From the NCBI GenBank assembly GCA_903835235.1, contig CAILMF010000055.1, forward strand, positions 186,001 to 250,000: a stretch of 64,000 nucleotides of DNA, read 5' to 3'. The stretch comes from an uncultured Rhodospirillales bacterium. Lineage in GTDB: Bacteria; Pseudomonadota; Alphaproteobacteria; Acetobacterales; Acetobacteraceae. Below, piece by piece: positions 59,985-62,814 of the stretch. Every line of letters starts with the position of its first letter. Within the stretch, counting starts at the first letter, position 1. The position numbers and the translations under genes were made by a program. A model generated the notes under the pieces. That model ran no database searches and had not been told where the DNA came from. It was given only the letters and a program-made list of their open reading frames with translations.

Positions 59985-60320
59985 ATGTCCATGCCCCGTC
60001 CCGTTGCCGCCCTGCTGGCCCTGGCCTGCCTGGTGCTGCCGACCTTTGCCGCGGCGCAGCCGGCCACCCCGTCCACCCGGCCCTCGACCAGCCCGAGCCC
60101 CTCGGCCGCGGTCCCGCCCATGCCCGGCGCCAGCACGCCGGAGGAGATCAACCGGCTGCGCGGTGCCCCCACCGGCCGCAGCGGCGCCGCCACCCGCGGC
60201 CTGGGCGTGCCGCACGACACCCAGCTGCCCGCCGGCACGGTGAATGCGCCGCCCGGCGGCGCCGCGACGCCGCCGCTGGCGCCGCCGACGACGCCGTCGA
60301 TCCCCACCCCCGGCCGCTGA
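59985..60320 (+). CDS. Hypothetical secreted Pro/Ala-rich protein
   Basis: 111 residues from ATG 59985, preceded by CCGGAG. Signal peptide VAALLALACLVLPTFAAAQ, then a disordered Pro/Ser/Thr/Ala-rich chain with GASTPEEINRLRGAPTGRSG. No domain recognised. Located just upstream of the 69-bp repeat array. Confidence 0.55.
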   Translation: MSMPRPVAALLALACLVLPTFAAAQPATPSTRPSTSPSPSAAVPPMPGASTPEEINRLRGAPTGRSGAATRGLGVPHDTQLPAGTVNAPPGGAATPPLAPPTTPSIPTPGR

Positions 60321-60554
60321 CCGGCCGGGCGGCGCGGCCTGGCAACCGGCCGGACGGCAGCCGGGCTTGATGCCCCAAACGCCGCTGCTGCGCTTCGCCC
60401 GGCTGGCTGACGCCGCCGGCCTGGGCCGAAGATGCTGGCTTTTGAGATAATAATCCTATACGGTGGCATCCCCCTTGGACGCCACCCGCAGGAGACCGAT
60501 GCCATCTCGCCCCGCCCCCTCTGGTTTTCCTGCCCGGGACGGGGCGAGCGGTGG

Positions 60555-61393
60555 ATTTGTCCGAATCCGGTCAGGGGCCGGGTGCCGCGGCAAGCCTGGC
60601 GCCGGGCGACCCTGGCCGCGGGATTTGTCCGAAACCCGCGCTGACCGGGCGTGCCACGGCGAACCCGGCATCCGGCGACCGCGGCCCAGGGGTTTGTCCG
60701 AAACTCGCGCTTATGCCGCGCGCCGCGCCTACCCCGGCTCCCGGCGACCGTGGCTCGGACATTTGTCCGAAACCCGCGCTGACCGGGCGTGCCCCGGCGA
60801 ACCCGGTATCCAGCGACCGCGGCCGGGGCCGGGGAATTTGCCCGAAACCCGCGCTTACGCCGCGCGCCGCGCCAAACCCGGCATCCAGCAACCCCGGTTC
60901 GGGCATTTGTCCGAAACCCGCGCTTACGCCGCGCGCCGCGCCAAACCCGGCGTCCAGCAACCCCGGTTCGGGCATTTGTCCGAAACCCGCGCTTTCTCCG
61001 CGCGCCGTGCCGAACCAGGCCCCCGGCGACCGTGGCCCGGACATTTGTCCGAAACTCGCGCTGACCGGGCGTGCCCCGGCGAACCCGGCATCCGGCGACC
61101 GAGGCCGGGGCCGGGGAATTTGCCCGAAACCCGCGCTTACGCTGCGCGCCGCGCCGAACCCGGCATCCAGCAATCCCGGTTCGGGCATTTGTCCGAAACT
61201 CGCGCTTACGCCGCGCGCCGCGCCGAACCCGGCCTCCAGCCACCCCGCCCCAGGGGTTTGTCCGAAACTCGCGCTTACGCCGCGCGCCGCGCCAAACCCG
61301 GCCCCCAGCAGCCCCGGCCCGGGCATTCGTCCGAAACCCGCGATCTTCCCGCGCCACGGCCGCAGCCCGCCGGCCAGCAGCGCCGCACGGGCT
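60555..61393. repeat. Tandem array of 69/75-bp units (about 12 copies)
   Basis: The word atttgtccgaaaccc (variants gtttg, tttgcccg) recurs at 60555, 60623, 60692, 60761, 60836, 60905, 60974, 61043, 61118, 61187, 61256 and 61325. Spacings are 68, 69, 69, 75, 69, 69, 69, 75, 69, 69 and 69. Two unit types alternate: one with ctgaccgggcgtgcc, another with cttacgccgcgcgccgcgcc; the 75-bp units carry an extra ggggcc-type hexamer. Units 3-6 and 7-10 are a 282-bp duplication. Almost all spacings are multiples of three and the array is open in several frames on both strands; a minus-strand 23-residue repeat (FGQMPEPGLLDAGFGAARG, then VSAG) or its plus-strand counterparts are possible. No start or domain decides it. 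60321-60554 holds nothing I recognise. Confidence 0.92.
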
Positions 61394-62814
61394 CAGGCCG
61401 GCAGCACCTGGCCCAGCACCCGGGCGAAATTGCCGCCCAGCAACTGCCCCACCTCGGCCTGGCCGAAGCCTGTCGCCAGCAGCTCCGCCGCCAGCTCCGG
61501 CGTCTGCCGGTAGCTGCTGTAGGCCGCCGTCCCCAGCAGCCCCAGCATGTCGCTGCCAATGCCGACATGCGCCACGCCAACCACCTCGGCCAGCCGGGCC
61601 ATGCCCTCGGCATAGCGCCGCAGCGTCGGGAAGATCGTGCTCGGCGGCCATACCCCGATCACCCCGCCGGTCTCGGCGATGGCCCGGGCATGGTCGCTGG
61701 GGATGGTCCGCGTCCGCCCCGGCGGATTGTTGTTCAGCGAGGTATGCGACAGCACGATCGGGTGGCGGCTCACCTCGGCGGCGCCACGCACCGTGGCCAG
61801 CGTGGCATGCGCCAGGTCCACCACCACGCCCAGGGCATTGCATTCCCGCACCACCGCGGCGCCGGCCGCGCTCAGCCCGTTATGCTCGGGCCGGTCGGTC
61901 TGGATGTCGCCCAGCTCGTTCACCCGGTAATGCACCAGTTGCAGGTGGCGCAGCCGATGCTGGGCGAAGGCCGCAGCCAGCCGCTCGGGCCGGCCCTCCA
62001 GGAAATCCGCGCCCTCGGCCGCCACCAGCACCGCCGGGGCTGCGCCGGGGGCCATGGCCGTGCGCAGGCTGGCCTGGTCGGTCACCACCGCCAGCCCCTG
62101 GGTCTGCACCACCTCGGCCAGCCGGGCGAAGGCGGCCTCGGCATGGCGCGCCAGCTCGCCCGGCTCGGGGTCCCGCACCGCCTGAATGCGGGTGCCGTTG
62201 ACCACCTGGGTCACCGGCGTATCCGCCACCATGGCCAGCGCGATCAGGCGCATGCCGCCTTCCTGCATCGGCGCCGCCACCGGGGTGAAGGGCCGGGCGC
62301 CGGTGCGGCTGATGATGACCCGCCCGGCATGGCTGTGCAGGTCCATCGGCGTGGCGGCGGCCACCAGCCGGCGGGCCTGGTCCAGCGCCCCCTCGGCCAG
62401 CGGCGGTGGCGCGGCGCAGCCGGCGGTGGCGGCCACGCAGGCCAGCGGCAGGCCGGACAGCGCGGCGCGCCGGCTCAGCCCCGGGCGCCTGGCCCAGGGA
62501 CCAGGCGGGCTGACCCGCCCGAGCGGCGTTGCCTCGGCCAATTGCCAGCGCCAGCCGGCGGCGTCATCCGGCGGCAGCGGCGCCCAGCGCCCGGCGATGC
62601 GGATGGCGCCGCCGCTGGGCGCCGGCAGCGCGGCTGCCGCCATGACCTCAACGGTATGGGCAGGGTTGGGCGGGCAGCCCAGGCAGCACTCCGGCTGCGG
62701 CACCAGCAGGCCATAGCCCGGCGAGGGCGGCGCCTCCAACGGCGCCAACCAGCCTTCCAGCTCCACCCATTGGCCCGGGGCGGCGGTGGGCAGGCTGGCC
62801 CAGGAAAGGCGCAT
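61393..62814 (-). CDS. Membrane dipeptidase (peptidase M19) with N-terminal beta domain and internal Tat/lipobox signal
   Basis: 473 residues. Residues 1-100 form a separate domain (WVELEGWLAPLEAPPSPGYG; PQPECCLGCPPNP) resembling DUF3299-type lipoprotein domains. Near 105-133 comes a Tat-like signal with lipobox, RRPGLSRRAALSGLPLA then TAGC. The M19 domain follows: DLHSHAGR, LVAAEGADFLEG, LVHYRVNELGDIQTD, VVVDLAHATLATV, PIVLSHTSLNN, VGIGSDMLGLLG, with metal-ligand His/Asp/Glu. M19 enzymes cleave dipeptides, often D-configured. No start codon lies between domain and signal, so the internal signal is odd. It might be two fused genes. Downstream is the 69-bp array. Confidence 0.85.
   Translation of the reverse strand: MRLSWASLPTAAPGQWVELEGWLAPLEAPPSPGYGLLVPQPECCLGCPPNPAHTVEVMAAAALPAPSGGAIRIAGRWAPLPPDDAAGWRWQLAEATPLGRVSPPGPWARRPGLSRRAALSGLPLACVAATAGCAAPPPLAEGALDQARRLVAAATPMDLHSHAGRVIISRTGARPFTPVAAPMQEGGMRLIALAMVADTPVTQVVNGTRIQAVRDPEPGELARHAEAAFARLAEVVQTQGLAVVTDQASLRTAMAPGAAPAVLVAAEGADFLEGRPERLAAAFAQHRLRHLQLVHYRVNELGDIQTDRPEHNGLSAAGAAVVRECNALGVVVDLAHATLATVRGAAEVSRHPIVLSHTSLNNNPPGRTRTIPSDHARAIAETGGVIGVWPPSTIFPTLRRYAEGMARLAEVVGVAHVGIGSDMLGLLGTAAYSSYRQTPELAAELLATGFGQAEVGQLLGGNFARVLGQVLPA

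Follow-up and report, generated by a model that had tools for sequence, protein, structure and literature searches.

A dispersed family of short-motif repeat arrays in some Acetobacteraceae, with putative links to LexA-type promoters and an orphan transposase-like DUF4096 protein family

The window, that is, the whole stretch of 64,000 nucleotides analysed here, comes from an uncultured Rhodospirillales bacterium of the family Acetobacteraceae and carries a tandem array in the gap between two convergent genes. The genes are calls from a codon model, not annotations. The features of the locus are as follows:

59985..60320, plus strand: ORF of 111 amino acids without a Pfam match, flanking the array
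60321..61392, no strand assigned: intergenic gap of 1072 bp that contains the array, with convergent genes on either side
60440..60463, plus strand: AT-rich promoter-like segment TTTTGAGATAATAATCCTATACGG with TCCTATA, of putative function
60490..60501, plus strand: start resembling a ribosome-binding site, AGGAGA with ATG (60499), also found in the three orthologous array leaders examined
60555..61338, plus strand: tandem array of 12 copies of the motif ATTTGTCCGAAACC with at most 2 mismatches, in steps of 68, 69 or 75 bp
61393..62814, minus strand: membrane dipeptidase gene (Peptidase_M19, PF01244), flanking the array, with its stop at 61393

The motif copies start at positions 60555, 60623, 60692, 60761, 60836, 60905, 60974, 61043, 61118, 61187, 61256 and 61325, which corresponds to motif-anchored steps of 68, 69, 69, 75, 69, 69, 69, 75, 69, 69 and 69 bp; TRF reports the segment 60606-61342 with a period of 69, 10.5 copies and a score of 755. 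The 69/75-bp in-step array of the preliminary description is thus real, with 12 units and every step after the first one (68 bp) being a multiple of three. Mean pairwise identity within the array is 0.94 for the 11 core bases, compared to 0.61 for the 20 bases before them and 0.70 for positions +14 to +45. A CRISPR array, which is defined by identical repeats and unique spacers, was considered and rejected, as it had been at the outset: there are no unique spacers, and the whole array consists of copies of one sequence that have diverged from each other.

The preliminary description also proposed that each strand stays open through the array, which could accordingly encode proteins made of 23-residue repeats. 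Over 60555-61338, the plus frames contain 3, 0 and 0 stops and the minus frames 1, 7 and 0, so that both strands indeed have an open frame but only three of the six frames are stop-free. Few simulated arrays reach this number: at least three open frames were obtained in 22 of 2000 random 69/75-bp arrays and in 17 of 2000 70-bp arrays in a crude simulation with independently diverging copies, and the openness is therefore somewhat unusual under such a simulation, and the multiple-of-three steps do not account for it. A gene for a repeat protein would account for the open frames, for the AGGAGA and ATG at 60490-60501, which three orthologues have in similar form, and for the excess of steps divisible by three (51 of 113, binomial P 0.006, orthologous loci not removed), an uneven split that has no explanation if the arrays are non-coding. 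Nevertheless, such a gene appears highly improbable. In the four arrays compared at this locus (window, G001, G002 and the MAG L112), the start (AGGA, then ATGCC) is common to all but the motif frame after the shared ATG differs, so that the check for a frame conserved in relatives returned none kept across the window and its three orthologues; furthermore, 62 of the 113 distinct within-cluster steps from all fetched loci (a count that omits steps of at least 160 bp) are not multiples of three, and the spacers are poorly conserved. The minus-strand ORF with FGQMPEPGLLDAGFGAARG that had been pointed out is present (60571-61326, 251 amino acids) but has no match in a Pfam search, and the codon-based gene model makes no coding call over the array. 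The synonymous share of the codon differences between units, a descriptive figure, is 0.33 in one plus frame (ICPK) and 0.24-0.29 in each of the remaining five frames. At the window locus, a leader may be translated. The other suggestion made at the outset, a satellite kept in frame by duplication, is nearer the truth but overlooks that what is conserved is a dispersed motif of 11-14 bp, associated with a promoter class of its own and with a protein family that occurs alongside it.

The window array belongs to a wider family, in which short repeats of a motif are dispersed between genes in some Acetobacteraceae. The 11-bp core TTTGTCCGAAA occurs at 61 sites of the window's own 5.97-Mb genome (31 and 30 on the two strands) versus 0 for the reversed control, and the 14-mer ATTTGTCCGAAACC with at most 2 mismatches at 94 sites versus 5; 54 of the exact copies are intergenic and 7 lie in genes. 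The clusters have steps of 15 to 148 bp, with unit lengths and spacers that vary by locus, and share little sequence beyond the motif: a BLAST search with the window array retrieved one other cluster at an E value of 8e-19 (68% identity), the rest being at 1e-4 or weaker. Nineteen array loci were followed in this genome, with single weak matches elsewhere (at most 2 mismatches) left out. The sites occupy a single strand in all 53 gaps that bear them, and 24 of these 53 gaps are convergent versus 9 of 71 gaps without sites, both sets being drawn from the fetched stretches. The motif is present in all five other genomes of the same genus, in 3 to 38 copies, and a survey at the class level found a close motif pair in 3 of 385 genomes, namely the window's own and two from other families. 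In predicted RNA folds, the motif is less often unpaired than its shuffled versions by a small margin (0.559 vs 0.587, P 0.024), which speaks against the explanation preferred below.

Several additional observations pertain to the surroundings and range of the clusters. In the 53 gaps with sites, the median distance from the 3'-most copy to the next gene is 97 bases in the window's own genome and 64 elsewhere; the upstream side is longer (medians of 191 and 205, respectively) regardless of gene direction. An octamer-like run directly follows the last motif copy in L083, L085 and L087-L090 (G307) and in L101 and L102 (G079), reading TAAAGCGG TAAAGTGC CAAAGCGG and GTAAGATA GTAAGGTG, a local repeat tied to array ends. 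In L091-L100 (G094), AAAGC...GGCTTT, which may form a hairpin, follows many of the copies, and in L072 (G262), two single copies come immediately after terminator-like sequences (hairpin plus T) that belong to similar, consecutive genes. Clusters were also seen in two genomes outside Acetobacteraceae, L157 (G507) and L156 (G748), one of them with 28- and 21-bp steps; G507 has four motif copies within about 200 bp.

Related genomes carry the motif at the same positions in different copy numbers. At the window locus, there are 12 copies in the own genome, 5 in G002, 8 in the MAG L112 and 4 in G001, with no copy after the dipeptidase gene in the MAG L113. A motif-bearing orthologue in G002 was found for 14 of the 17 G000 gaps examined, among stretches fetched for holding the motif. 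Identity pooled over 17 gap pairs is 0.85 in motif columns and 0.61 in spacer columns, both figures being biased upward because the orthologous stretches of G001, G002 and G005 were fetched for carrying the motif. Only L111-L114 were fetched irrespective of it, with arrays in L112 and in L111, whose contig is that of L125 (G002), and none in L113 and L114, the match of L114 spanning 33 residues only. Judged from these comparisons, the cluster positions are older than the spacers, and the core is better conserved between species than the spacers are. Copy number would shift through local tandem duplication. Locus-specific spacers and copy numbers that shift between species at fixed positions, as described for the STAR repeats in parts of PMC3532100, would also be expected of passive repeats, that is, an old motif that spread, multiplied by local replication slippage and has no partner, and whose association with regulatory sites reflects a preference for strong regulated leaders.

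The regulatory sites in question are chiefly LexA boxes. In the window's own genome, 16 of the 19 loci lie downstream, in the sense orientation, of the alphaproteobacterial box GTTCN7GTTC, which corresponds to the Caulobacter LexA motif published in PMC12700426, as given in the passages considered; the box is located in the array's own leader at 12 loci and belongs to a boxed gene in front at four (lexA, an imuA-like gene, a radical-SAM/rnhB operon (rSAM-rnhB) and an RraA-like gene). Across 12 genome groups, the box is present in 33 of 85 gaps; upstream parts contain 33 boxes on the same strand as the motif and 1 in reverse (19.1 kb), with 0 in arrays and 0 downstream, whereas 132 control gaps (27.5 kb, either strand) contain 10. 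These counts, like those of boxA-like elements below, skip any gap with copies on both strands. The narrower pattern GTTCNNNNTAYGTTC has 23 sites in the window's own genome vs 0 for the reversed control; sorted by eye, 12 are located in front of arrays and 5 in front of DUF4096 genes, 1 is the box of the imuA-like gene, and the remaining 5 lie before other genes or no clear gene. Outside the genus, the LexA link is weaker (G307, 3 of 9 gaps; g36, 1 of 5; G094, 1 of 7; G262, 0 of 10; G079, 0 of 2). All 16 lexA genes located by script have GAACN7GAAC upstream; lexA was not located in G300 (L194), and G079 yielded no lexA match.

The three loci without a LexA box are the window (TCCTATA), L053 (AGGAN6TCCT), where the array precedes a YifB/ComM-type gene, and L058 (TACAGGAA). 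The window's own gap has no GTTCN7GTTC in its own genome; its G001 orthologue (L145) has a LexA box, as GTTCTGGTAATGTTC, and TTCCTATA lies upstream of the orthologous arrays L112 and L125. SOS control of the window's own array is thus inferred from the G001 orthologue only. As a side observation, the promoter-region dyad AGGAN6TCCT occurs 9 times in upstream parts and twice in control gaps, and TTCCTATA 7 times and twice, respectively; one or the other lies upstream of the arrays L053, L064, L073, L074, L079, L083, L087, L128 and L154, as well as at L041. These elements are perhaps the operator of another repressor able to replace LexA.

A boxA-like element is present in 6 of the 19 leaders of the window's own genome. 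Upstream of arrays, GCTCTTT occurs 22 times on the same strand and once in reverse in 19.5 kb, in a minority of the gaps (21 of 86), and is found 0 times in arrays or downstream; counted on both strands, it occurs twice in 753 kb of gene sequence and twice in 55 kb of control gaps. In the 13 leaders that have both elements, the distance from the start of the LexA box to that of GCTCTTT is 35-47 bases. The extended pattern GCTCTTTN6-9GCATC has 6 sites genome-wide, all 6 in array leaders, compared to 2 for the reversed control. According to parts of PMC5725501 and PMC4807359, boxA together with Nus factors counters Rho-dependent termination of untranslated rRNA; given this role, the boxA-like leaders suggest that the arrays are possibly made as untranslated RNA. 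The shared GCTCTTT is the point of likeness to the boxA sites of PMC5725501, whereas the bases that follow it are unlike the gamma-proteobacterial consensus quoted there, GYTCTTTAANA.

The motif is also attached to predicted genes of the SOS response itself. It lies downstream of lexA in G000, G001, G002 and G005, with no copy behind lexA in G004, a genome of the same genus. The imuA-like gene, a name that derives from NCBIfam matches below the cut-off, is followed by an array in G000 and by one copy in G002, and in G262 and G155 two exact copies lie inside its ORF; a LexA-type box precedes the gene in all four genomes. These two placements in the same message, behind the ORF and inside it, would favour a role of the motif at the RNA level. 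Two in-ORF copies were also seen in parC (topoisomerase IV A; L245:4784 and 5081), with no LexA box in that stretch.

Many of the in-gene motif sites in other genera and five box-bearing genes of the window's own genome belong to a single orphan transposase-like family, DUF4096, whose members have about 195-265 amino acids. Pfam reports an N-terminal DUF4096 in 29 of 29 members and no other domain, and the predicted structure of a family protein is helical (pLDDT 88.6). A full-length IS5 transposase including the DDE part was tried and rejected: two members match NCBIfam NF033580 only at positions 5-84 and 22-84 of 258, below the cut-off. Within these genes, the motif encodes D-L-S-E near the C-terminus. 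Among 29 genes picked by protein profile as the best match per genome (without two spurious second-domain rows and without L234, in which no DLS was found; 7 of the 12 rows of the profile, A1, come from genes first met through the motif), 25 have GAT TTG TCC, and 9 have GTTCN7GTTC upstream. The codon columns in 28 genes are GAT in 26 of 26, TTG in 25 of 28, TCC in 27 of 27 and GAA in 18 of 19. Because these columns are nearly fixed although TTG accounts for only 6% of the leucine codons in the window, the nucleotides seem to be held beyond the residues they encode; some other columns are fixed too, mostly with common codons such as CGC.

The family is present in 93 of 397 Acetobacteraceae genomes, including 24 of 24 genomes with at least 8 motif copies (P about 6e-17, phylogeny ignored; read off by eye) and 18 of 18 with at least 10 (P about 1e-12, phylogeny likewise ignored); by genus, the comparison is 10 of 10 versus 22 of 102. 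Part of this co-occurrence is inherent in the counting: a DUF4096 gene usually contains a copy of the motif, and gene-internal copies are included in the motif counts. The 18 genomes with at least 10 copies have 1 to 7 DUF4096 genes each, G092 has 10 such genes and 8 motif copies, and 69 genomes have a DUF4096 protein without reaching 8 copies. Passive repeats akin to STAR would predict neither this co-occurrence nor the fixed nonpreferred codons in the DUF4096 ORF, nor the 33:1 orientation to LexA boxes, and we regard them as unlikely.

The same data bear on a second alternative, a DNA-level system resembling REP/RAYT, in which the DUF4096 protein would be an IS5-type DNA-binding domain that has become domesticated, with the motif as its DNA site; each array would be a non-autonomous copy, with the parent gene's promoter inherited at one end and the motif at the other. 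This would fit the solitary DUF4096 domain of all 29 members, the association of the motif with DUF4096 genes, and the promoter types (GTTCNNNNTAYGTTC and TTCCTATA) and promoter-then-motif order that arrays and DUF4096 genes share. However, inspection reveals nothing in common between promoter and motif except for the boxA-like leader, the motif is found in other genes too (in the imuA-like ORF and behind lexA), and the inverted repeats seen at four IS5 relatives, clearly at one and weakly at three, are unlike it, so that such an origin, although worth considering, is rather doubtful.

Under the explanation we prefer, and to which we assign about an even chance as a whole, the arrays are transcribed, damage-linked sites whose motif is probably recognised by the DUF4096 protein. 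They would be transcribed after DNA damage, mostly as non-coding RNAs, and the motif would be a candidate recognition site of this protein. RNA would be a likelier target than DNA, because the motif has the orientation of the promoter and is found both within coding sequence and in the 3' part of SOS messages. Extra copies might titrate the protein or co-regulate the lexA and imuA messages. A more elaborate version, which we put forward tentatively as possible but the less expected outcome, is a DNA-damage RNA regulon in which the 11-nt element marks LexA-controlled messages (lexA, the imuA-like gene, the rnhB operon and the DUF4096 gene itself), with the stand-alone non-coding arrays, partly boxA-led, acting as expandable sponges for DUF4096 proteins; the result would be a post-transcriptional SOS layer the strength of which evolves by array length.

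No described element of this kind was known to the preliminary description, and none was found in Rfam or in the open-licence literature, where searches retrieved nothing on the array motif or on the DUF4096 partner, the nearest kinds being STAR and REP/RAYT. As described in parts of PMC3532100, the STAR elements of Staphylococcus are similarly composed of a short (14 bp) motif in intergenic direct repeats, with spacers distinct for each locus, variable copy number, uneven abundance among related species and no known function. The arrays described here likewise consist of direct repeats between genes, each locus having its own spacers and a copy number that varies, as compared between species rather than strains. 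Identity with STAR was rejected given that the consensus T(G/A/T)TGTTG(G/T)GGCCC(C/A) in PMC3532100 is unrelated to ATTTGTCCGAAACC; in addition, unlike STAR, the present motif is oriented with LexA-type promoters, has boxA-like leaders in some cases, enters ORFs and co-occurs with one protein family.

The REP/REPIN elements and their RAYT (TnpA-REP), as far as the sources considered describe them, also combine dispersed intergenic short repeats with a stand-alone transposase-like gene. REP elements are palindromic, and RAYT is an HUH/Y1 transposase. By contrast, TTTGTCCGAAA differs from its reverse complement and keeps to one strand within each of the 53 gaps, and the candidate partner here has an IS5-type DUF4096 in place of HUH/Y1 and contains the motif inside its own ORF. 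With the alphaproteobacterial LexA regulon, as covered in parts of PMC12700426, the present system shares the box, which precedes lexA, the imuA-like gene and most of the array loci of the window's own genome, the window's own array being among the exceptions; the literature searches yielded no repeat arrays for this regulon, and the passages of PMC12700426 considered do not contain 'small RNA' or 'non-coding'. According to parts of PMC3532100, dispersed direct-repeat families such as STAR have no known function or means of spread. In the present case, a repeat family is accompanied by a candidate partner protein and by a promoter class (LexA), and DNA damage offers a clear test, so that the question of repeat function becomes directly testable. 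If the RNA reading is true, SOS control in these bacteria gains a post-transcriptional layer built from expandable arrays.
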